The notes under the pieces are model-generated. The model worked only from the letters and a program-made list of their open reading frames with translations, made no database searches and was not told the DNA's origin. From positions 1 to 32,572 of the forward strand of contig RDYP01000027.1 in assembly GCA_004293445.1 (NCBI GenBank): DNA of 32,572 nt. Reading direction: 5' to 3'. The DNA is from Verrucomicrobiota bacterium. GTDB lineage: Bacteria; Verrucomicrobiota; Verrucomicrobiia; Verrucomicrobiales; Akkermansiaceae. Positions 15,316 through 26,045 of the stretch are shown one piece after another. A program made the position numbers and the translations under genes. Each line of letters begins with the position of its first letter. Within the stretch, counting starts at the first letter, position 1.

Positions 15316-15349
15316 GACTGAAGTTTGTTCTTTTGAACAGTTTTCAGTC
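15316..15349 (-). terminator. Candidate hairpin at end of oppABC operon
   Basis: Inverted repeat GACTGAA (15316-15322) and TTCAGTC (15343-15349) with an inner GTTC-TTTT-GAAC hairpin (15327-15338). It covers the oppC stop codon. No T-run follows on the minus strand, so it may be a partial terminator, an RNA stabiliser or only a chance repeat between oppC and radC. Confidence 0.35.
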
Positions 15350-16315
15350 TTTCGCTGCTTTGGGGTCGGTGGCGTCGCGGAGTCCGTCGCCGAGGAAGTT
15401 GAGCGAAAACAGGGTGAGGGAGAAGAAGAGGGCGGGAAAGAGGAGTTGGAGGGGATTGGTAAGCATGAAATTGGCACCTTCCTGGATGAGGACTCCCCAG
15501 GAGCTGTTGGGTGCCTTCACGCCGAGTCCGAGGAAGGAGAGGGTGGCCTCGAACATCATCACGCCCGGGATGGTGAGGGTGGTGTAAACGATGATGGGGC
15601 CGAGGGTATTGGGCAGGATGTGGCGGAAAAGGATGCGAAAGTGGCCGAGGCCGAGGGAGCGGGCGGCTTCGACAAAATCGAGGCTGGCGACGCTTTGGAC
15701 CTGGGCTCGGACGATGCGGGAGACGGTGAGCCAGGAGAGGGCGCCGATGGCGATGAAGACGGGGACGAGGGTGGTGAGGGGTTCGACCCAGTTGCGGGTG
15801 CTGACGAGTTGTTTGGTGTCGGCGTTTTCCCCTGCGACGAGGTGGACGGTGGACTCGGTGAGTTGGTCGGTGAGGGGTTCGAGGATCTTGCCGAGAAGGA
15901 TGATGACGACGAGGAAGGGAAGGGCGTAGAGGATATCGACCACCCGCATGAGGAAGGCGTCGGTGCGGCCTCCGACGTAGCCGGCGATCGCACCCCAGAC
16001 GATGCCGATGGTGACGGAGACGAAGGTGGTGATGAGGCCGACAGCGATGGAGATCCGGCCACCGAAGATGACGCGGGAAAAGAGGTCGCGGCCGAGGTGG
16101 TCGGTGCCGAACCAGTGTTCTGCGCCGGGTTTGAGGTTGCGGTGGACGAGGTCGGTTTTGTTCGGGTCTTTGAGGAAATCGGTGAGGGCGGGGAGGAGGA
16201 TGCAGGAGCTGCCGATGAGGATGAGTAGGAAGAGGCCGACCATGGCGGCTCGATTGCGGCGGAGGCGCAGCCAGGCATCGAGCCAGAGGGAGGAGCCTTT
16301 TTCGTCGGAGTTCAT
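15344..16315 (-). CDS. oppC: Oligopeptide ABC transporter permease, OppC/DppC type
   Basis: A 323-residue inner-membrane permease subunit of a peptide/nickel ABC importer. The N-terminal OppC motif (WLRLRRNRAAMVGLFLLI, 15-32) leads into helix 1; the periplasmic part has HWFGTDHLGRDLFSRV (67-82), as in nearly all OppC/DppC proteins. The EAA loop that docks on the ATPase is FVEAARSLGLGHFRILFRHILPN (214-236). A somewhat long periplasmic loop (about 145-180) is present. The ATG at 16315 is chosen because it gives the standard cytoplasmic lead; the open frame extends further into oppB. It is the last gene of an oppA-oppB-oppC set that has no ATPase genes of its own. Confidence 0.93.
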   Translation of the reverse strand: MNSDEKGSSLWLDAWLRLRRNRAAMVGLFLLILIGSSCILLPALTDFLKDPNKTDLVHRNLKPGAEHWFGTDHLGRDLFSRVIFGGRISIAVGLITTFVSVTIGIVWGAIAGYVGGRTDAFLMRVVDILYALPFLVVIILLGKILEPLTDQLTESTVHLVAGENADTKQLVSTRNWVEPLTTLVPVFIAIGALSWLTVSRIVRAQVQSVASLDFVEAARSLGLGHFRILFRHILPNTLGPIIVYTTLTIPGVMMFEATLSFLGLGVKAPNSSWGVLIQEGANFMLTNPLQLLFPALFFSLTLFSLNFLGDGLRDATDPKAAKD

Positions 16316-16346
16316 GGGAGAATGATGGGTCGGAGCGGGAGGGTGC

Positions 16347-17273
16347 TCATGCCGCCTTGCGCAGGCGTGGATTGAGCCAGATGCCGGCGAGGTCGGTGAG
16401 GAAGTTCGCGGTGATGACGAGTGCGCCGTAGAGCATGGTGACGCCGAGGATGACGGGGGTGTCGCGCGTCTCGATGGACTTGATGAAATGGCGTCCGAGT
16501 CCTGGGATTTGGAAGACGCTTTCGATGACGAGGGAGCCGGAAACAATGCCGGCGAAGGCGGGGCCGATGTAGGCGACGGCGGGGATGAGTCCGCCGCGGA
16601 GGCAGTGACGAACGAGGATACGCCAGCCCGGAACGCCCTTGGCGCGTGCGGTGCGGACGAAGTCCTGGGAGAGGGTTTCGAGCATTCCCGCGCGGGTCAG
16701 GCGGGACAGGTAGGCGGCATAGGCGAGGCCGAGGGTGAGGGCAGGGAGGAACCAGGTGGCGGGCTTGGCGGGGTCCCATCCATAGGCGGGAGCAAGTTTC
16801 AGGGCGCGGCCCAGCCATTCGGCGAGGATGGGTCCGGTGACGAAGGACGGGAGGCAGATGCCGATCATCGCGATGGACATCGAGAGCGTGTCAAGGAGCC
16901 CGTTTTTTCTCGCAGCGGCGATGCAGCCCGCTGGGATGCCGATGGAGACGGCGATGGTCATCGCGATGACGCCGAGTTGGAGGGAGACGGGGAAGGCCTG
17001 GCCGATGATTTCGGCGACGGGTCGGCCTTCGAGGCGGAAGGAGAAGCCGGGATCGCCTTGGAGGAATTTCGAGAGTTGGCGGGTGTATTGTTCGAGCGGG
17101 GATTGATCGAAGCCATAGTAGGCTTCGCGTTTGGCCATGATGTGGGGGGGCATGGCTTTGTCACCTTGGAGCGGGTTGCCGGGGAGTGCTTTGACGAGGA
17201 AGAAGGTGATGGTGTAGAGGACGAACATCACGAGGATGCTCTGGAAGAGGCGGCTGAGGATGACCTTGAGCAT
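16347..17273 (-). CDS. oppB: Oligopeptide ABC transporter permease, OppB/DppB type
   Basis: A 308-residue permease partner of OppC. Typical start LSRLFQSILVMFVLYTITFFLVKALPGNP (6-33), a GDPGFSF periplasmic segment (73-79), and six predicted membrane helices. The EAA loop is DFVRTARAKGVPGWRILVRHCLRG (204-227). FQIPGLGRHFIKSIETRD and the YGALVITANFLTDLAGIWLNPRLR end are family hallmarks. The ATG at 17273 lies 12 bases after the oppA stop and oppC follows after 31 bases, so A-B-C form one operon. Confidence 0.94.
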   Translation of the reverse strand: MLKVILSRLFQSILVMFVLYTITFFLVKALPGNPLQGDKAMPPHIMAKREAYYGFDQSPLEQYTRQLSKFLQGDPGFSFRLEGRPVAEIIGQAFPVSLQLGVIAMTIAVSIGIPAGCIAAARKNGLLDTLSMSIAMIGICLPSFVTGPILAEWLGRALKLAPAYGWDPAKPATWFLPALTLGLAYAAYLSRLTRAGMLETLSQDFVRTARAKGVPGWRILVRHCLRGGLIPAVAYIGPAFAGIVSGSLVIESVFQIPGLGRHFIKSIETRDTPVILGVTMLYGALVITANFLTDLAGIWLNPRLRKAA

Positions 17274-17285
17274 GGGTGGGGTGGG

Positions 17286-18896
17286 TCAGGGTTCGAGAGA
17301 GAGGGCGCCCCAAGGGTGGTTGTCGAGGAGGAGGGGATGCCAATTTTTTACTTCGGGTCGGAGGAGGTAGTTGCGGCCGCGGAAGGAAATGGGGAGGACG
17401 GGTTGTGCCTCCATGAAGAGACGTTCGGCCTGTTTGAAAAGGGCGAGGCGCTGGGCGGGGTTGGACTGGTGGGCGGCTTCTGCGAGCAGGTTTTCGTATT
17501 CCTCGCTGTGCCAGCCGGTGTTGTTGTTCCCGTTGTCCTTGGTCCACATGAGGAGGAAGGTGGAGGGGTCGAGGTAGTCACCGGTCCACGCGGCGAGGGA
17601 GATGTCGAAATCGAGCTTTTGTTGTGAGCTGATGTAGGAGCCCCAGTCCATCGGCTGGACATCGATCATGACGCCGAGGGTCTGTTTCCACATGGCTTGG
17701 AGTGCCTCGACGGTGCCGCGGCTGCCGGAACTGCTCATGAGGATTTTGAAGCGTGGAAAGCCTTTGCCGTCCGGGAATCCGGCTTCGGCGAGTAGGTCTT
17801 TGGCTCCTTGGGGATCGTAGCTGACGATGTGGTCGGGCTGGTAATCGCCCATGTCGGGGGTGATGGTGCCACAAGGGGTGTTGCCTTGCAGGATGTGGTC
17901 GCAGAGGAGCTTGCGGTCGATGGCTTTCGAGAGGGCCATGCGGACCTTGGGCTGGTCGAGAACGGGTCGGGTGGTATTGATGCGGATGAAGTCGGTGGCG
18001 ATGTAAGGCTCCTGACGAACGAACTCGGGGTGTTCGGCCTTCAATTTATCGACGAGCGGGGGGGGGAGTTGGTAAGTGGCGTGCAGCTGGCCGGCGAGGA
18101 AACCGCGGGTCTCGGTGTAGAAGTTTTCGACGGGAACGAAGCGGACGCCGTTGAGCTTCACGTTGGCGGCGTTCCAGTAGCGGGGGTTTTTGGCGGTTTC
18201 GATTTTGTCGTTGAAGCGCCATTCCTTGAGGATGAAGGGGCCGTTGCCGACGAGGTTGCCGGCATCGCTCCAAGGAGTGAAGCGGTCGCTGATGGTGTTG
18301 CCGTTTTTGCTGAAGCGCAGGACGACGTGGCGGGGGATAGGGAACCAGGTGTAGTGGCGGGTGATGTCGGGGAGGAAGGGGACGGGTTCCTTGAGAGAGA
18401 TGTGCAGGGTGTGGTCGTCGATGGCCTTGGCACCGACTTGGTCGAAGTCGGTGATTTCGCCCCGATTGAAGGCTTCGGCGTTTTTGAGGAAGTAAAGCAT
18501 CTCGGCATAAGGGCCGGCCAGATCGGGGTGGAGGAGGCGATGGTAGGCGAAGACGAAGTCGTGCGCGGTGAGTGGTGTGCCATCGGACCATTGGCCATCG
18601 TGCCGGAGGTGGAAGGTCCACTCGGTGAATTCCGGGTTGTGTTCCCAAGAAGTCGCGGCACCGGGTGGGTAGGCGTTGTCGGTTTTCGGGTCGTCGGCGA
18701 CGAGGCCTTCGAGCAGGGCGCGGATGATGTTGCTTTCGATGACCCCGGTGACGAGGTGGGGATCGAGGGATTTGGGATCGGTGGAATTTCCGACGATGAG
18801 GATTTTGTCCCGGTTCGCCTTTTCGACCTGGGTTTCCCGCTGGCAGCCGGCGAGGCAGAGGAGGAGGCAAAGCAGGGAGAGGGCGCGGCGGATCAT
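17286..18896 (-). CDS. oppA: Peptide ABC transporter substrate-binding lipoprotein, OppA type
   Basis: A 536-residue SBP_bac_5 family protein that captures oligopeptides outside the cytoplasmic membrane and delivers them to OppB/OppC. The signal peptide RRALSLLCLLLCLAGC ends in lipobox LAGC (C18). The mature part starts with the family pattern ILIVGNSTDPKSLDPHLVTG, followed by IIRALLEGLV, WTFHLRHDGQWSDGTPLTAHDFVFAYHRLL and RMALSKAIDR, all standard. The ATG at 18896 starts the signal peptide; the open frame continues 35 codons upstream without a signal. It is first in the operon and faces yejB across 185 bases of divergent control region. Confidence 0.94.
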   Translation of the reverse strand: MIRRALSLLCLLLCLAGCQRETQVEKANRDKILIVGNSTDPKSLDPHLVTGVIESNIIRALLEGLVADDPKTDNAYPPGAATSWEHNPEFTEWTFHLRHDGQWSDGTPLTAHDFVFAYHRLLHPDLAGPYAEMLYFLKNAEAFNRGEITDFDQVGAKAIDDHTLHISLKEPVPFLPDITRHYTWFPIPRHVVLRFSKNGNTISDRFTPWSDAGNLVGNGPFILKEWRFNDKIETAKNPRYWNAANVKLNGVRFVPVENFYTETRGFLAGQLHATYQLPPPLVDKLKAEHPEFVRQEPYIATDFIRINTTRPVLDQPKVRMALSKAIDRKLLCDHILQGNTPCGTITPDMGDYQPDHIVSYDPQGAKDLLAEAGFPDGKGFPRFKILMSSSGSRGTVEALQAMWKQTLGVMIDVQPMDWGSYISSQQKLDFDISLAAWTGDYLDPSTFLLMWTKDNGNNNTGWHSEEYENLLAEAAHQSNPAQRLALFKQAERLFMEAQPVLPISFRGRNYLLRPEVKNWHPLLLDNHPWGALSLEP

Positions 18897-18971
18897 GAGT
18901 CGACCGAGGAGTAGCGTTTCCGGAGGGTGGATTGCAGGGAAATTTTGCGGCAATCGGTCGTCTTTGGCGGC

Positions 18972-19004
18972 TTGGTCAATTTTGGCGGGTGCTTTGGTCA
19001 AAGC
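18972..19004. promoter_or_regulatory. Candidate operator: TTGGTCAA direct repeats in shared divergent region
   Basis: TTGGTCAA occurs at 18972-18979 and again at 18994-19001, exactly 22 bases apart (about two helical turns). The second copy lies in a palindrome GCTTT-ggtc-AAAGC (18991-19004). Position between oppA (-) and yejB (+) suits a regulator controlling both peptide-transport operons. The complementary strand reads TTGACC, which could also serve as a -35 element for oppA. No regulator gene is adjacent. Confidence 0.35.
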
Positions 19005-19081: not shown

Positions 19082-20383
19082 TTGAAAGCGTATTTCCTTC
19101 GCCGTCTTCTGCTGATCCCTTTCACTTTGCTGGGGATCACGGCCTTGGTGTTCGCGGTGAATCGTTTGGCCCCGGGCGGGCCGATGGAGCAGAGTTTGTC
19201 GTCGCTGGTCGGTGGCGAGGGGCAGGCGAAGCGCTCCCGCGCGGAGTCGGGCTTTTCCTTGAGCGCCAGCCAAGTGCTGGAGTTGGAAGAGAAGTTTGGC
19301 CGCGACAAGCATGCGTTCCGTTCTTATCTGGAGTGGCTGGGTGTGCTGCCACGGGACATTGCCAGCAAGAAGGCGGGCAAGGAGTTTCCGGCGGGGAAGA
19401 TGCGGGTTGAGGTCGCGGTGCCCGGGACGGTCAAGGTGGCGACGATCGAGCGCGACGAATCGGGTGGGGCGAGGATTGTGCCGGAGCCGGGCTTGGATAT
19501 GGCGGGTTGGCAGGTGCGTTTGCGAACGCCTGAGGAGCAGGCGGCGCGCTGGGCGAAGTGGGTGAAGGGAGTGGAATTGCCGGAAAAGCCTGGCTATCGT
19601 GCGGTGCTCTACCAGTCGCGCCGGGAAGGCTTGCTGCAGGGGAGTTTGGGTGACTCGACGAAGTATCAGGATCCGGTGTGGACGATGATTTTCCAGCGGA
19701 TGCCGGTGTCGCTCTATTTCGGTTTGGTCAGCATGGTGGTGATTTACGGCGTTTGTTTGCCGCTGGGGATTGCCAAGGCGATCCGGCATCGGACCTGGTT
19801 TGACAATGCCAGCTCGGTTGCGGTTTTCGCCGGCTATGCGATTCCCGGTTATGCGCTGGGTTCTTTGCTGGTGGTTTTTCTAGGCGCGAAGCTCGGGTGG
19901 TTTCCTTTGCGGGGTTTTACCGGAGATGACTTCGACCGATTGTCGTTCTTCGGGAAGGTCCGGGATGTGGTTCACCACACCGCGATGCCCTTGGTGTGCT
20001 ACTTGATCGCCAGTTTCGCCTTCATGACGATGCTGATGAAGAATAACCTGATGGATCATCTTGCCGCCGATTACGTCCGCACGGCGGCGGCGAAGGGCGT
20101 GTCGTTCCCGCGGGCGGTCTTCAAGCATGCGTTCCGGAATTCGATCATTCCGATTGCGACGACCTTCGGGAACAATATCTCGCTGCTGGTTGCGGGCTCG
20201 ATGTTGATCGAGCGGGTTTTCGATATCAACGGCTTCGGGCTTTTGCAGTTCAATGCGATTTACGAGCGGGACGAGCCCTTGATCATGGGGGTGGTGTTTT
20301 TCTCAGCGGTATTGATGTTGGTCGGCAATGTTTTGTCCGATCTGTGCGTGGCATTGGTGGATCCCCGGGTGAGTTACAAGTGA
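19082..20383 (+). CDS. yejB: Peptide ABC transporter permease, YejB type, with enlarged periplasmic domain
   Basis: A 433-residue permease whose ends match YejB of the YejABEF peptide/microcin C importer: start MKAYFLRRLLLIPFTLLGIT and NRLAPGGPMEQ (27-37), then SLYFGLVSMVVIYGVCLPLGIAKAIRHRTWFD (210-241), FPLRGF (274-279), and the EAA loop YVRTAAAKGVSFPRAVFKHAFRNS (331-354). The C-terminal DINGFGLL and LSDLCVALVDPRV are also diagnostic. E. coli YejB is about 364 residues; here about 90 extra residues (about 93-186) sit in the first periplasmic loop. The start is a TTG at 19082, chosen because it gives the conserved first residues and no nearby ATG does. yejE begins one base after its stop. Confidence 0.9.
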   Translation: MKAYFLRRLLLIPFTLLGITALVFAVNRLAPGGPMEQSLSSLVGGEGQAKRSRAESGFSLSASQVLELEEKFGRDKHAFRSYLEWLGVLPRDIASKKAGKEFPAGKMRVEVAVPGTVKVATIERDESGGARIVPEPGLDMAGWQVRLRTPEEQAARWAKWVKGVELPEKPGYRAVLYQSRREGLLQGSLGDSTKYQDPVWTMIFQRMPVSLYFGLVSMVVIYGVCLPLGIAKAIRHRTWFDNASSVAVFAGYAIPGYALGSLLVVFLGAKLGWFPLRGFTGDDFDRLSFFGKVRDVVHHTAMPLVCYLIASFAFMTMLMKNNLMDHLAADYVRTAAAKGVSFPRAVFKHAFRNSIIPIATTFGNNISLLVAGSMLIERVFDINGFGLLQFNAIYERDEPLIMGVVFFSAVLMLVGNVLSDLCVALVDPRVSYK

Positions 20384-20384
20384 C

Positions 20385-21992
20385 ATGAACTTCGCGCGCA
20401 AAGTCGGATTGCTTTTGCTGCTGGTGGCCGTCGTTGCGGTGCTGGCGTGGCGGGCGGAATGGTCCTTGCCCTCGTTGCGATGGTTTTTCTCTTTCGGTGC
20501 GACGCCGGAGCAAATCGCAGAGGCCGAGGTGACGCGGGTGCTGGGGGTCGAAATGGATCTGCCTTGGTGGCGGGAGCAGCAACGTGAGGTTGTCGGGTAT
20601 GCGATGTGTGGGTTGATGGCCTTGGTCGGAAGCTGGCTGCTGGCGTGTGGTGGGAGCTTTCAGTGGAATCCTTTAACGGTGCGGCGTTTCGCGCGGTTTC
20701 GTTCGATTGGCCGTGGTTGGCTTTCGTTCCGTTTGTTCCTGCTGCTGGTGCTGTTGGCGATGTTGGATCAGGCTTTGGTGGGCAAGCGGGCACTGGCGGT
20801 GAGGTATGCGGGTGAGTGGTATTTTCCTGCGTTTCGTGAGCGGGCTTACAGCGATCGCGATTTCGGGGGGACTGAGGAGCAGGAGGCGAATTACCGGAAA
20901 ATGCGTGCGGCTTTTCGTGAGCGGGCTTCGGGGGATCTGGTGATTTTGGCACCGATTCCTTGGGATCCGACTTTTGATTCGGACGAGGTGAGTCGGCGGG
21001 CTTTGGTCGAGCGCGATGGGAAATGGTATCGTCCCGGCGGGAGGCTCGCTTACGACGGGCAGGCGACGCAGTTCCGTGGTGAAGATGCCTCCGTGCCCTT
21101 GCGGACGGCGCGTTTCCGAAAGGGTCTGCGGGATGGCACGACTTCGCTGTTTGATGCGCGGGGCGAATTCGCGGGGCGCGAGGAATGGCGTGCGGGGAAT
21201 TTGGTGGAATCCGGCGTGATCGGCGATGCCGGGGAGGCGTTAGGGGGAGCTTGGCAAGAGCTGATCTATCCGCCCGCGCCACCCTCATTCGGATCTTGGG
21301 AGCGGCTGCACGTGTTGGGGACGGATTCCAAAGGCTGGGACATCGCGGCGCAGGTTTATGGGGGCCTGCAGGTGATCCTCAAGGCATCGGTCCTGTTTGT
21401 CGTGTTGACCTACGGTATAGGCATCGCGATCGGCTGCATGGAGGGCTATTTCGGCGGATGGTTCGACATCGTCAGCCAGCGATTTTCGGAAGTGCTGAGC
21501 AATGTGCCATTCCTGCTGATCGTGATGATTCTGACCGCAAACATCGGGCTGGATAAGATCTCGCTGGGCACGGTGCTGCTGATCTTCTGCTTGTTTTCTT
21601 GGATGGGGGTTTCGATCTACCTGCGGAGTTCGACCTATCGTGAGAAGGCGCGGGACTACGTGGCAGCGGCGCGGGTTCAGGGTGCCGGCACGTTTCGTGT
21701 GATCTTTCGGCACATCCTGCCGAATGCGGTGTCGACGCTGGTGACTTTGTTGCCTTTCAGCATCGCGGGCTTGGCGACTTCTCTGACGGCGCTGGATTTT
21801 CTCGGTTTCGGTTTGCCGGATCGATATCCGAGTTGGGGGCGGGTACTGGATGACGGGACTCAGAATCTTTCCTCGCCATGGATCGTCAGCTCGGTGTTCG
21901 GGATGATGGTCGGCGTGTTGCTTCTCATCACCTTCATCGGCGAGGCGGTTCGCGAGGCCTTTGATCCGAAGAAATTCACGACCTACCAATGA
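20385..21992 (+). CDS. yejE: Peptide ABC transporter permease, YejE type, with N-terminal extension and MORN-like insert
   Basis: A 535-residue permease; E. coli YejE has about 341. The YejE core starts near residue 94 (NPLTVRRFARFR), then has VRYAGEWYFPAF (139-150), DFGG (159-162), LGTDSKGWDI (311-320), the EAA loop DYVAAARVQGAGTFRVIFRHILPN (424-447), and LDFLGFGLP with GEAVREAFDPKKF at the end. Two additions stand out. Residues 1-93 add two predicted membrane helices (about 6-22 and 70-88). Residues about 205-295 form an extra soluble segment whose centre, RFRKGLRDGTTSLFDARGEF followed by AGREEWRAGNLVESG (243-277), resembles MORN-type YwqK repeats. Its last codon overlaps the yejA start. 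Confidence 0.9.
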   Translation: MNFARKVGLLLLLVAVVAVLAWRAEWSLPSLRWFFSFGATPEQIAEAEVTRVLGVEMDLPWWREQQREVVGYAMCGLMALVGSWLLACGGSFQWNPLTVRRFARFRSIGRGWLSFRLFLLLVLLAMLDQALVGKRALAVRYAGEWYFPAFRERAYSDRDFGGTEEQEANYRKMRAAFRERASGDLVILAPIPWDPTFDSDEVSRRALVERDGKWYRPGGRLAYDGQATQFRGEDASVPLRTARFRKGLRDGTTSLFDARGEFAGREEWRAGNLVESGVIGDAGEALGGAWQELIYPPAPPSFGSWERLHVLGTDSKGWDIAAQVYGGLQVILKASVLFVVLTYGIGIAIGCMEGYFGGWFDIVSQRFSEVLSNVPFLLIVMILTANIGLDKISLGTVLLIFCLFSWMGVSIYLRSSTYREKARDYVAAARVQGAGTFRVIFRHILPNAVSTLVTLLPFSIAGLATSLTALDFLGFGLPDRYPSWGRVLDDGTQNLSSPWIVSSVFGMMVGVLLLITFIGEAVREAFDPKKFTTYQ

Positions 21993-24045: not shown

Positions 24046-25023
24046 ATGGAAGAACCGCTGCTCCAGGTCCGCGATTTGATCACTGCCTTTGATACGGAGG
24101 GCGGCTTGATTCGTGCTGTCGATCAGGTATCTTTCGACATTGCCCGCGGTCGGACCTTGGGGATTGTCGGCGAGTCGGGATGCGGAAAGAGCGTGACCGC
24201 GATGTCGCTGGTCCGTCTTTTGCCGCAGCCTGCGGGGAGGATCTTGCAGGGTGAAGTGCGCTTCAAGGGGCGAGACCTTTCGCGGCTCAGGTCTGACGAA
24301 TTGCGCAAAGTCCGCGGCAACGAGATCGGCGTGATTTTTCAGGAACCGATGACGGCCTTGAACCCGGTGCAGAGAATCGGCAAGCAGCTCGCCGAATGCT
24401 TCCTGCTGCACAAGGGGATGAATCGGCGGCAGGCGTGGGAGGCGGGAGTTGAGATGTTGCGGTTGGTAAAAATTCCTTCACCCGAGCTGCGTGCAGGGGA
24501 CTATCCGCACCAGCTTTCCGGCGGGATGCGGCAGCGAGTGGTCATTGCGATGGCTCTGGCGTGCAGGCCCGATCTGGTGATTGCGGACGAACCGACGACG
24601 GCTCTGGATGTGACGGTCCAGGCGCAGATTCTCGACTTGATGAAGCGCTTGCAGGCGGAACTGGGGATGTCGGTGATTCTGATCACCCACGACCTTGGTG
24701 TGATTGCGGAGACCTGCGACGAAGTCTTGGTTATGTATGGTGGTCGGGTCGTCGAGCGTGCGCCGGTCCGTGAAATTTTCGCTCGTCCGCGGCACGCTTA
24801 CACCAAGGGCTTGCTGGCATCGATTCCGCGCTTGGAGACTCCACGCAAGTCCCTGCTTCCGGTGATTCCGGGCATGGTGGCTTCCTTGCGGGACTTCGTG
24901 CCGGGCTGCCGATTTTGCCAAAGGATGGCTCGCGAGGGGCCGACGCTGCGGGAACGCCCTCCCTTTCTCGAAGTCTCGCCCGGTCATTGGGTTGAGGCCT
25001 GTCCCATCTGTCACGTCCCATGA
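24046..25023 (+). CDS. oppD: Peptide ABC transporter ATPase, OppD/DppD type (N-half of YejF)
   Basis: A 325-residue ATP-binding subunit. Walker A GESGCGKS (42-49), Q-loop FQEP (98-101), signature LSGGMRQR (157-164), Walker B LVIADEP (177-183) and H-loop THD (214-216) are all present. The C-terminal oligopeptide-transporter tail has [14 protein letters not shown] (250-263), then GCRFC (287-291) and ACPIC (318-322). The four cysteines C288, C291, C319 and C322 make two CxxC pairs, a possible iron-sulfur or zinc site; such tails bind [4Fe-4S] in some DppD homologues. In E. coli YejF, this and the next gene are a single fused protein; here they are separate with a 4-base ATGA overlap. Confidence 0.93.
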
Positions 25024-26045
25024 AGCCGATCCTTGCTGTCCGCGATCTTAAGGTTCACTTCCCGCTGGCGGGGGGGCTGTTCATGCGTCGGATGGGGGCG
25101 GTTCGCGCGGTGGATGGCGTGTCCTTTGATATCGCGCCGGGGGAAACTTTGGGGCTGGTGGGCGAGTCGGGCTGCGGGAAGTCGACATTGGGGAAGGCGA
25201 TCGTCCGCCTGACGGATGCGAATGCGGGAACGATTCACTTCGACGGTCGCGACATCACAAAGCTCGGTCGTCGCGAGATGCGTCCACTGCGTCGGGATAT
25301 TCAGATGATTTTCCAAGATCCTGTCGAGTCGCTCAACGCAAGGCACAGCGTGCGTGAGATCCTCGAGGAGCCTTTGATCATCCATGGGATCGGCTCGGCG
25401 ATGGATCGGCGCCAACGGGTGGACGAAGTGCTGGAGCGGGTGGGACTTCAGCGATCTGCGGCGGAACGTTATCCTTTTGAGTTTTCCGGTGGTCAGAGGC
25501 AGCGGATTGGTATCGCCCGCGCCATCATACTGCGGCCGAGGCTGATCATTTGCGACGAGCCGGTTTCAGCATTGGATGTTTCGGTGCAGTCGCAGGTGCT
25601 CAATCTTTTGTTAGAGCTGCAGCGGGACATGGGCCTCTCCTATCTTTTCATCGCCCACGATCTGGCGGTGGTGAAGCATATCTCTGATCGGGTGGCAGTG
25701 ATGTATTTGGGAAAAATCGTCGAGCTTGCCGGAGCCGATGCGATTTATCGGAGGCCGAGGCATGCGTACACCAAGGCTTTGTTATCGGCCATTCCGGAGG
25801 CGGATCCAACTCGTGCCAAAGAGCGAATTCTGTTGGAGGGAGACGTGCCGTCGCCGATCGATCCACCTGCGGGAAGTGCCTTTGGGCACCGGATCGCTCA
25901 TCCGCGTTATGGGGAAACGGTGGGTCTGGATCTTTCGCCGCGGGAACTTGAGCCCGGTCATTGGATCGCTCCGGATCCTTGTTGTGTGGAGTCGGAGGAG
26001 CTGGCGAGACTTGGGATCAATGGCCCTCCGAAAGCTGGTTCTTGA
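25020..26045 (+). CDS. oppF: Peptide ABC transporter ATPase, OppF/DppF type (C-half of YejF)
   Basis: A 341-residue second ATPase. Walker A GESGCGKS (48-55), Q-loop FQDP, signature [15 protein letters not shown], Walker [13 protein letters not shown] and H-loop AHD are intact, so both sites of the heterodimer should be functional. The extra N-terminal segment [22 protein letters not shown] is typical for OppF. After PSPIDPPAG, most OppF proteins have a cysteine-containing CxFxxRC tail; here it reads [15 protein letters not shown], with the cysteines lost, and a CC pair appears only later (PDPCC). Its ATG overlaps the oppD stop. The last 29 bases overlap the end of cca on the other strand. Confidence 0.94.

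Follow-up and report, generated by a model that had tools for sequence, protein, structure and literature searches.

Organization of the yej locus

The window analyzed here is a stretch of 32,572 nucleotides (contig RDYP01000027.1 of assembly GCA_004293445.1, forward strand) from a Verrucomicrobiota bacterium of the family Akkermansiaceae. It contains the gene set expected of a peptide ABC importer, namely the B subunit, the C subunit, the binding protein, and two ATPases (Table 1). Facing the yej genes head to head is a divergent opp-like set (15344-19001, minus strand), and the yej-side ATPases may be shared with it, because they are the only oligo_HPY-type ATPases on the contig. In 14 of 17 other genomes of the same genus, there is likewise a second permease match some 5 kb away on the opposite strand.

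Table 1. Genes and features of the yej locus and the adjoining opp-like set (window coordinates)
Feature	Position	Strand	Basis
OppC of the opp-like set	15344-16546	-	NCBIfam
OppB of the opp-like set	16347-17273	-	NCBIfam
OppA of the opp-like set	17286-19001	-	NCBIfam
YejB-like permease (B subunit), 433 aa	19082..20383	+	NF011712 7e-70, below cut-off
YejB insert, ~95 aa (residues 88-182), after the region corresponding to the DppB scoop	19343..19627	+	Sequence comparison
YejE-like permease (C subunit, oligopeptide-type ABC importer), 535 aa	20385..21992	+	Pfam, NCBIfam, model alignment
N-terminal extension (residues 1-91) with two additional predicted helices (3-23, 59-91)	20385..20657	+	Predicted model
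Insert, residues 199-288, TM1-TM2 segment (periplasmic by homology)	20979..21248	+	Alignment with insertless relatives
Predicted cap at the N-terminus of the module, residues 203-224 (short strands 203-206, 208-210, 213-215)	20991..21056	+	Predicted strands; common to MORN_2 proteins
Putative MORN_2-type repeat 1, residues 225-250 (strands 225-231, 238-245)	21057..21134	+	Predicted strands, profile comparison
R245-x-G247, both invariant	21117..21125	+	79/79 inserts
Putative MORN_2-type repeat 2, residues 251-274 (strands 251-256, 262-269)	21135..21206	+	Predicted strands, profile comparison
Family-5 substrate-binding protein (YejA-like, lipobox-like LPSC), 684 aa	21989..24043	+	SBP_bac_5 1.6e-39
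OppD-type ATPase	24046..25023	+	Pfam, NCBIfam
OppF-type ATPase	25020..26045	+	Pfam, NCBIfam

The C subunit gave a BPD_transp_1 match of 3.4e-28 in the Pfam scan. Its best NCBIfam model was NF011596 (YejE; 4.8e-58, 196.8 bits), of whose 341 positions 114-339 aligned to permease residues 297-530; since the score falls below the curated cut-off of 439 for the E. coli-type YejE, the protein is best named YejE-like. When the full AlphaFold2 model was compared with known structures, residues 91-530 aligned with 280 of the 282 residues of the OppC chain 8j5s_C (Z 25.9, 2.9 A), and 13 OppC/DppC entries, 8z21_B and 8z1v_B among them, aligned over 272-286 residues with Z 21.8-25.9. With its BPD_transp_1 domain and predicted OppC/DppC fold, the protein belongs to the OppC/DppC/YejE type of ABC permease.

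The alignments with the OppC/DppC chains began at permease residues 89-98, and both the insert described below and the two-helix N-terminal extension fall outside the aligned chains. In comparison with the OppC fold, the window permease also has a longer YejE-type periplasmic stretch before the insert, which is common to the insertless relatives. A similar-looking N-terminal extension occurs in the relative L224 (genome G162), yet that permease carries no such insert.

Relatives were compared as 80 named loci, which are the best 80 of 564 confirmed matches and thus biased to close relatives. The nearest of these to the window permease were from a MAG (L077, 80%) and Luteolibacter marinus (L061, 64%), which places the window in the Verrucomicrobiales. 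Within the same 80 loci, yejB adjoined the permease gene in 75 and the binding protein gene lay downstream in 78, the misses being at contig ends; the order yejB-yejE-binding protein was kept wherever the contigs allowed.

Extent and placement of the insert

A preliminary description of this DNA had placed about 90 added residues at 205-295 (20997-21269) of the permease. The addition was confirmed, and its bounds were moved to residues 199-288. The reference for the insertion was a set of seven YejE relatives that belong to other families and lack the insert (L030, L216, L217, L218, L221, L222, and L224), to which the window permease was aligned. The insert comprises 90 amino acids, give or take a few, and is flanked by '..PIPWDPTFD' and 'AWQELIYPPAPP..LGTDS', whereas in the insertless relatives '..P(I/V)P(W/F)' is followed almost at once by '..P.PP...LGTD'.

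The insert sits between predicted TM1 (109-126) and TM2 (320-356) of the OppC/DppC-type fold. The segment before TM1 (92-108) contains four K/R but lacks D/E, a composition typical of the cytoplasmic side. For DppBCDF, the TM1-TM2 region is reported to be periplasmic in both subunits, and a scoop of DppB in this region is described as binding DppA and sealing the outward cavity (PMC12136057). Because the TM1-TM2 region of DppC is reported as periplasmic and positive charge precedes TM1 in the window permease, the insert is predicted from topology to lie on the periplasmic side, where the binding protein docks. The insert and the scoop are alike in being elements of the periplasmic TM1-TM2 region. 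The reported scoop, however, belongs to the B subunit, is made up of a loop and two short helices, and contacts the binding protein, whereas the window module is a predicted beta module in the C subunit for which such a contact is conjectural.

Relationship of the insert to MORN_2 repeats

The preliminary description had also recognized a MORN/YwqK-type module in this segment. A direct profile search did not bear this out: the Pfam MORN and MORN_2 models gave no match to the whole permease at E<=10, the MORN models of Pfam and NCBIfam matched none of 29 inserts searched singly at the same threshold, and Pfam matched none of five further inserts. The window insert thus scores below the curated cut-off of PF07661 (29.6 bits). 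The repeats have diverged too far to be detected by the MORN_2 model, which has 22 positions, when taken one sequence at a time, and from the profile comparisons that follow the insert appears to be a diverged relative of the MORN_2/YwqK family, not an annotated member of it.

A profile built from 49 inserts only (A3) was searched over 141 genomes of the class. It retrieved 23 permeases at E<=1.4e-17, followed by other genes from E 2.4e-11. Among the latter were L031, L032, and L033, which lie at loci unrelated to the transporter and had earlier been found by PF07661 alone at E<=10. Whole-protein Pfam scans placed MORN_2 above the 29.6-bit cut-off in L031, L037, L038, L189, and L193, and below it, at 23.1-27.8 bits, in L032, L033, L035, and L188, of which L188 was the top match outside the permeases; MORN_2 was the top or only repeat match, Sel1 aside, in these nine proteins. 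Non-permease matches other than L188, L189, L193, L031-L033, and the repeat-mapped proteins were judged by score and frame length only. Most of these MORN_2 proteins were matched by the insert profile several times, at successive repeats. Compared directly, the window insert and L188 showed 26% identity over 66 residues (E 7e-4 for a single comparison).

The profile-profile comparison gave the same picture. Using hhalign, the insert profile aligned to a profile of 21 MORN_2 segments with a probability of 99.05 and a score of 86.7, against scores of at most 16.3 for 200 column-shuffled decoys and 8.7 for the reversed version. The 21 segments had been chosen with the insert profile, and five full proteins found by PF07661 alone, three of them above the Pfam cut-off, served as an independent check. 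They scored 33.8-49.1, whereas 40 shuffles of each reached at most 14.4-21.4 and five unrelated proteins of the window scored 10.4-17.7.

In the reciprocal search, a profile made from MORN_2 proteins only was run on 115 permeases and 690 decoys, the best decoy reaching 5.4 bits. Of the permeases, 106 scored higher than this, a count that is not of independent species, as several records are present twice (e.g., L006/L061, L002/L077, and L017/L064). The window permease scored 24.0 bits over residues 206-273. The nine permeases that did not exceed the best decoy were the seven insertless relatives and the diverged inserts of L016 and L223; the record L064/L017 scored just above it.

Conservation within the insert was counted over 79 sequences, namely the window and 78 named loci from the best 80 of 564 confirmed matches. 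R245 and G247 were invariant, and the repeat-start and other glycines were conserved to varying degrees (G225 in 78, G251 in 76, G271 in 75, and G260 in 68 of 79). By eye, the position of R245 was not invariant in the 21 MORN_2 segments. The two repeat-start glycines were 26 residues apart in 71 of 79 inserts, 27 in four, 24 in three, and 38 in one, which is a little over the 23 residues of the MORN_2/YwqK repeat; the predicted strands 225-231/238-245 and 251-256/262-269 supply one beta-hairpin per repeat of that approximate length. The MORN spacing first noticed at residues 243-277 is real and more than chance, as shown by this conservation and by profile scores far above those of shuffled controls; the module is longer, extending from the cap at 203-224 to a strand ending at about 278. 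Canonical MORN repeats are reported to start with a GxG motif (PMC7725318), which is absent from the window insert: the first glycine is kept and the second is absent (G225-Q-A and G251-T-T).

Taken together, the profile-profile comparison, the insert-only profile, the reciprocal search, and the confidently predicted hairpin sheet indicate that the insert very probably consists of two diverged MORN_2 (YwqK-type) repeats preceded by a cap, and the original proposal of such a module within a YejE-type permease is upheld to this extent. It resembles the MORN_2 proteins (PF07661, YwqK-type; L031, L037, L189, and L193) in a colinear arrangement of cap and hairpin repeats over 60-70 residues. These are separate proteins, mostly with more repeats, whereas the window has about two diverged repeats inside a membrane permease.

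PF07661 searched over 19 relative genomes gave no match at E<=0.001, nor did it in 14 control genomes. At E<=10, matches appeared in 15 of the 19 relative genomes, none over the cut-off in that search; when six of the proteins concerned were scanned whole, three passed it. The insert profile searched against PDB sequences returned only rows at E 0.3-2, including the MORN stretch of SET7/9, and these are not evidence by themselves. Four proteins of about 480-520 aa in related genomes (L032, L034, L036, and L039) have a weak MORN_2 match near the C-terminus, following an uncharacterized region; L032, the one scanned, was below the cut-off. Two genomes of family f22, G067 and G162, are rich in insert-profile matches (16 and 27 at E<=0.01). 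In two proteins checked, the neighboring domains were Sel1 (L188) and GYF_2 (L189).

Predicted fold of the module

The insert alone was modeled by AlphaFold2 with 70 aligned sequences, and the mean pLDDT was 91.6. In the full protein, the same strands were predicted with block means of 77-86 over residues 201-280. The strands form a cap (203-215), two hairpins (225-231/238-245 and 251-256/262-269), and a last strand (272-278), whose start is overlapped by repeat 2. As predicted, the module is a small, independently folding sheet of MORN-like beta-hairpins in a single layer. In MORN proteins, each repeat is reported as strand-loop-strand (PMC7725318).

Structural searches with the insert model gave no Foldseek match at E<=0.001; MORN1 of P. 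falciparum (6t4d) ranked fifth (E 0.37, prob 0.85). By VIA-align, the top Z was 6.0, below the 7-8 that is typical of models without a clear match, and SET7/9 (1mt6), further down, aligned with Z 4.5 at 2.3 A over 56 residues. The likeness to the canonical MORN proteins (MORN1 6t4d and 6t69; SET7/9), which appear among the Foldseek and VIA matches, lies in a predicted sheet of hairpins, with structural scores that are not significant. OspA and TarM/SdgB/GtfA-type proteins scored similarly in the same lists.

Distribution and evolutionary history

The insert was found in 29 of the first 30 relative loci, L030 being without it, and in all 78 readable named loci among the best 80 of 564 confirmed matches, which are the closest relatives; L102 and L130 were left out because the frame was cut or broken. 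The insert is thus conserved in close relatives. Among the 141 genomes of the class, 35 had a match to permease residues 86-201, and in 23 of these the module followed directly. Of the remaining 12, ten lacked the insert, one (G164) had a different insert, and one (G133; L223) had a diverged, MORN-looking insert.

In a phylum sample of 240 genomes, in which matches were judged by score and frame length (E<=1e-5), the strong matches in permease-length frames all belonged to f1 and f4, two families of the order of the window organism. This confinement agrees with the earlier view that a MORN module in a permease is unusual. The insert also occurs in relatives of families f2, f5, and f6.

A tree of 52 permeases was built with the insert columns excluded. 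The 37 rows labeled MORN lay on one side of a single branch (100/95). One of them, L223, had been labeled by eye; its insert lies at the same site but has a profile score of -0.3 bits, and it grouped with the MORN clade on a long branch (1.59), so its placement is unsure. Without L223, the 36 MORN rows were set apart by a branch of 96/88. Since the tree needs a single change, the most likely history of the module is one gain in an ancestor of the Verrucomicrobiales followed by retention. L234, L238, and L239 carry another insert at the same YejE site and form a branch of their own (100/99); this insert is larger and by eye has no resemblance to MORN. One YejE site has thus received two different inserts.

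The insert of the neighboring YejB subunit appears to be older than, or independent of, that of YejE, because loci of families f3 (L231 and L232) and f22 (L230) carry the YejB insert without the YejE insert. A joint origin of the two inserts was also considered and is countered by these loci.

Among 17 proteins of the same genus, the mean identity of the insert was 0.43, the lowest of four regions, against 0.48 for the N-terminal extension and 0.75 for the transmembrane domain. Across nine pairs, the insert gave pN/pS values of 0.25-0.62, while the transmembrane domain gave 0.09-0.21 and the N-terminal extension 0.44-0.62; all are rough since dS is near saturation. The insert is under purifying selection. 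Its lowest identity fits a lineage-specific partner, and also a spacer.

Possible role of the module

The module may be an added protein-docking surface; this is the favored reading, though a tentative one to which we give slightly less than even chances. After a single gain in the TM1-TM2 segment of a YejE-like permease, the hairpin sheet would lie in the periplasm on the docking face for the binding protein and would dock a protein there. The first candidate is the cognate lipoprotein substrate-binding protein, possibly together with the neighboring YejB insert, and such docking could help to hold or orient the binding protein during peptide release into the channel. We infer both the docking and the choice of partner from four points: MORN repeats reportedly serve in protein-protein interaction (PMC7725318), the module is placed beside the presumed docking site, the TM1-TM2 scoop of DppB is reported to bind DppA (PMC12136057), and the order yejB-yejE-binding protein is kept. 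Counted against docking are the occurrence of the YejB insert in loci without the YejE insert, the low identity of the module, and the N-terminal tether of the binding protein, which by eye did not track the YejE insert in 7 + 12 = 19 loci.

Alternatively, the MORN_2 module could be a passive spacer that binds nothing and is tolerated as an insertion making the TM1-TM2 loop longer or stiffer. That the insert is less conserved in sequence than the core would suit such a role, as would the larger, different insert of the L234, L238, and L239 clade, which indicates that the site tolerates insertions. However, the retention of the module in every readable named locus (all close relatives), the invariance of R245 and G247, of which the first is by eye not invariant in the 21 MORN_2 segments, and the purifying selection on the insert all argue against it, and we consider a spacer rather unlikely.

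It is less probable still that the module recruits some other partner, which could be an enzyme of the periplasm, a different lipoprotein, the cell wall, or the lipid headgroups on the membrane face. The name MORN reportedly goes back to a proposed membrane association, and the repeats are described as protein-binding, but the same source re-evaluates lipid binding in favor of protein-protein interaction (PMC7725318). A Yej-type importer of Agrobacterium is reported to take up peptidoglycan fragments (PMC9790009), which would accord with a partner of this kind; the conservation of genes was surveyed for yejB and the binding protein only, a scope within which a partner gene was neither found nor excluded.

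A quite improbable alternative to docking is a gate or lid that sets which peptides, or how large, may pass. In its favor are the tentative conclusion that the peptides handled by Yej are 7-13 residues long (PMC10924461) and the reported sealing of the outward cavity by the DppB scoop (PMC12136057), but the present analysis gave no link between the insert and the substrate, and insertless verrucomicrobial relatives exist. That the insert is an unrelated beta-meander with chance spacing, as the lack of a Pfam match and the similar structural scores of OspA and the TarM/SdgB/GtfA-type proteins might suggest, is hardly credible in view of the hhalign score with its independent five-protein check and the E 2.4e-11 match outside the permeases.

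Extending the docking reading, it is conceivable, if doubtful, that the Yej-type importer of much of a Verrucomicrobia order, Akkermansia included, has a built-in docking platform, in which the MORN_2 module of the C subunit, possibly with the insert of the B subunit, would capture the binding lipoprotein (or a periplasmic partner) and couple its delivery to transport. Such a platform would amount to a solution distinct from the DppB scoop and, to our knowledge, to the first MORN repeat with a role in an ABC importer; docking of the binding protein by the module would bear on how binding proteins find their translocators.

A literature search on MORN with permease or YejE, thin in its coverage of subscription papers, found no paper on the combination. 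The parts are known; we are aware of no earlier account of their combination, of its apparent single origin, or of its retention. Through profile comparison, a loop without annotation in Pfam and NCBIfam becomes recognizable as a probable interaction-type module with an invariant R245. Related Yej-type permeases that carry the module, that lack it, or that have a different insert in its place form a natural comparison set, and the relatives that carry the insert include three of Akkermansia (L113, L107, and L132), a gut genus of wide interest.
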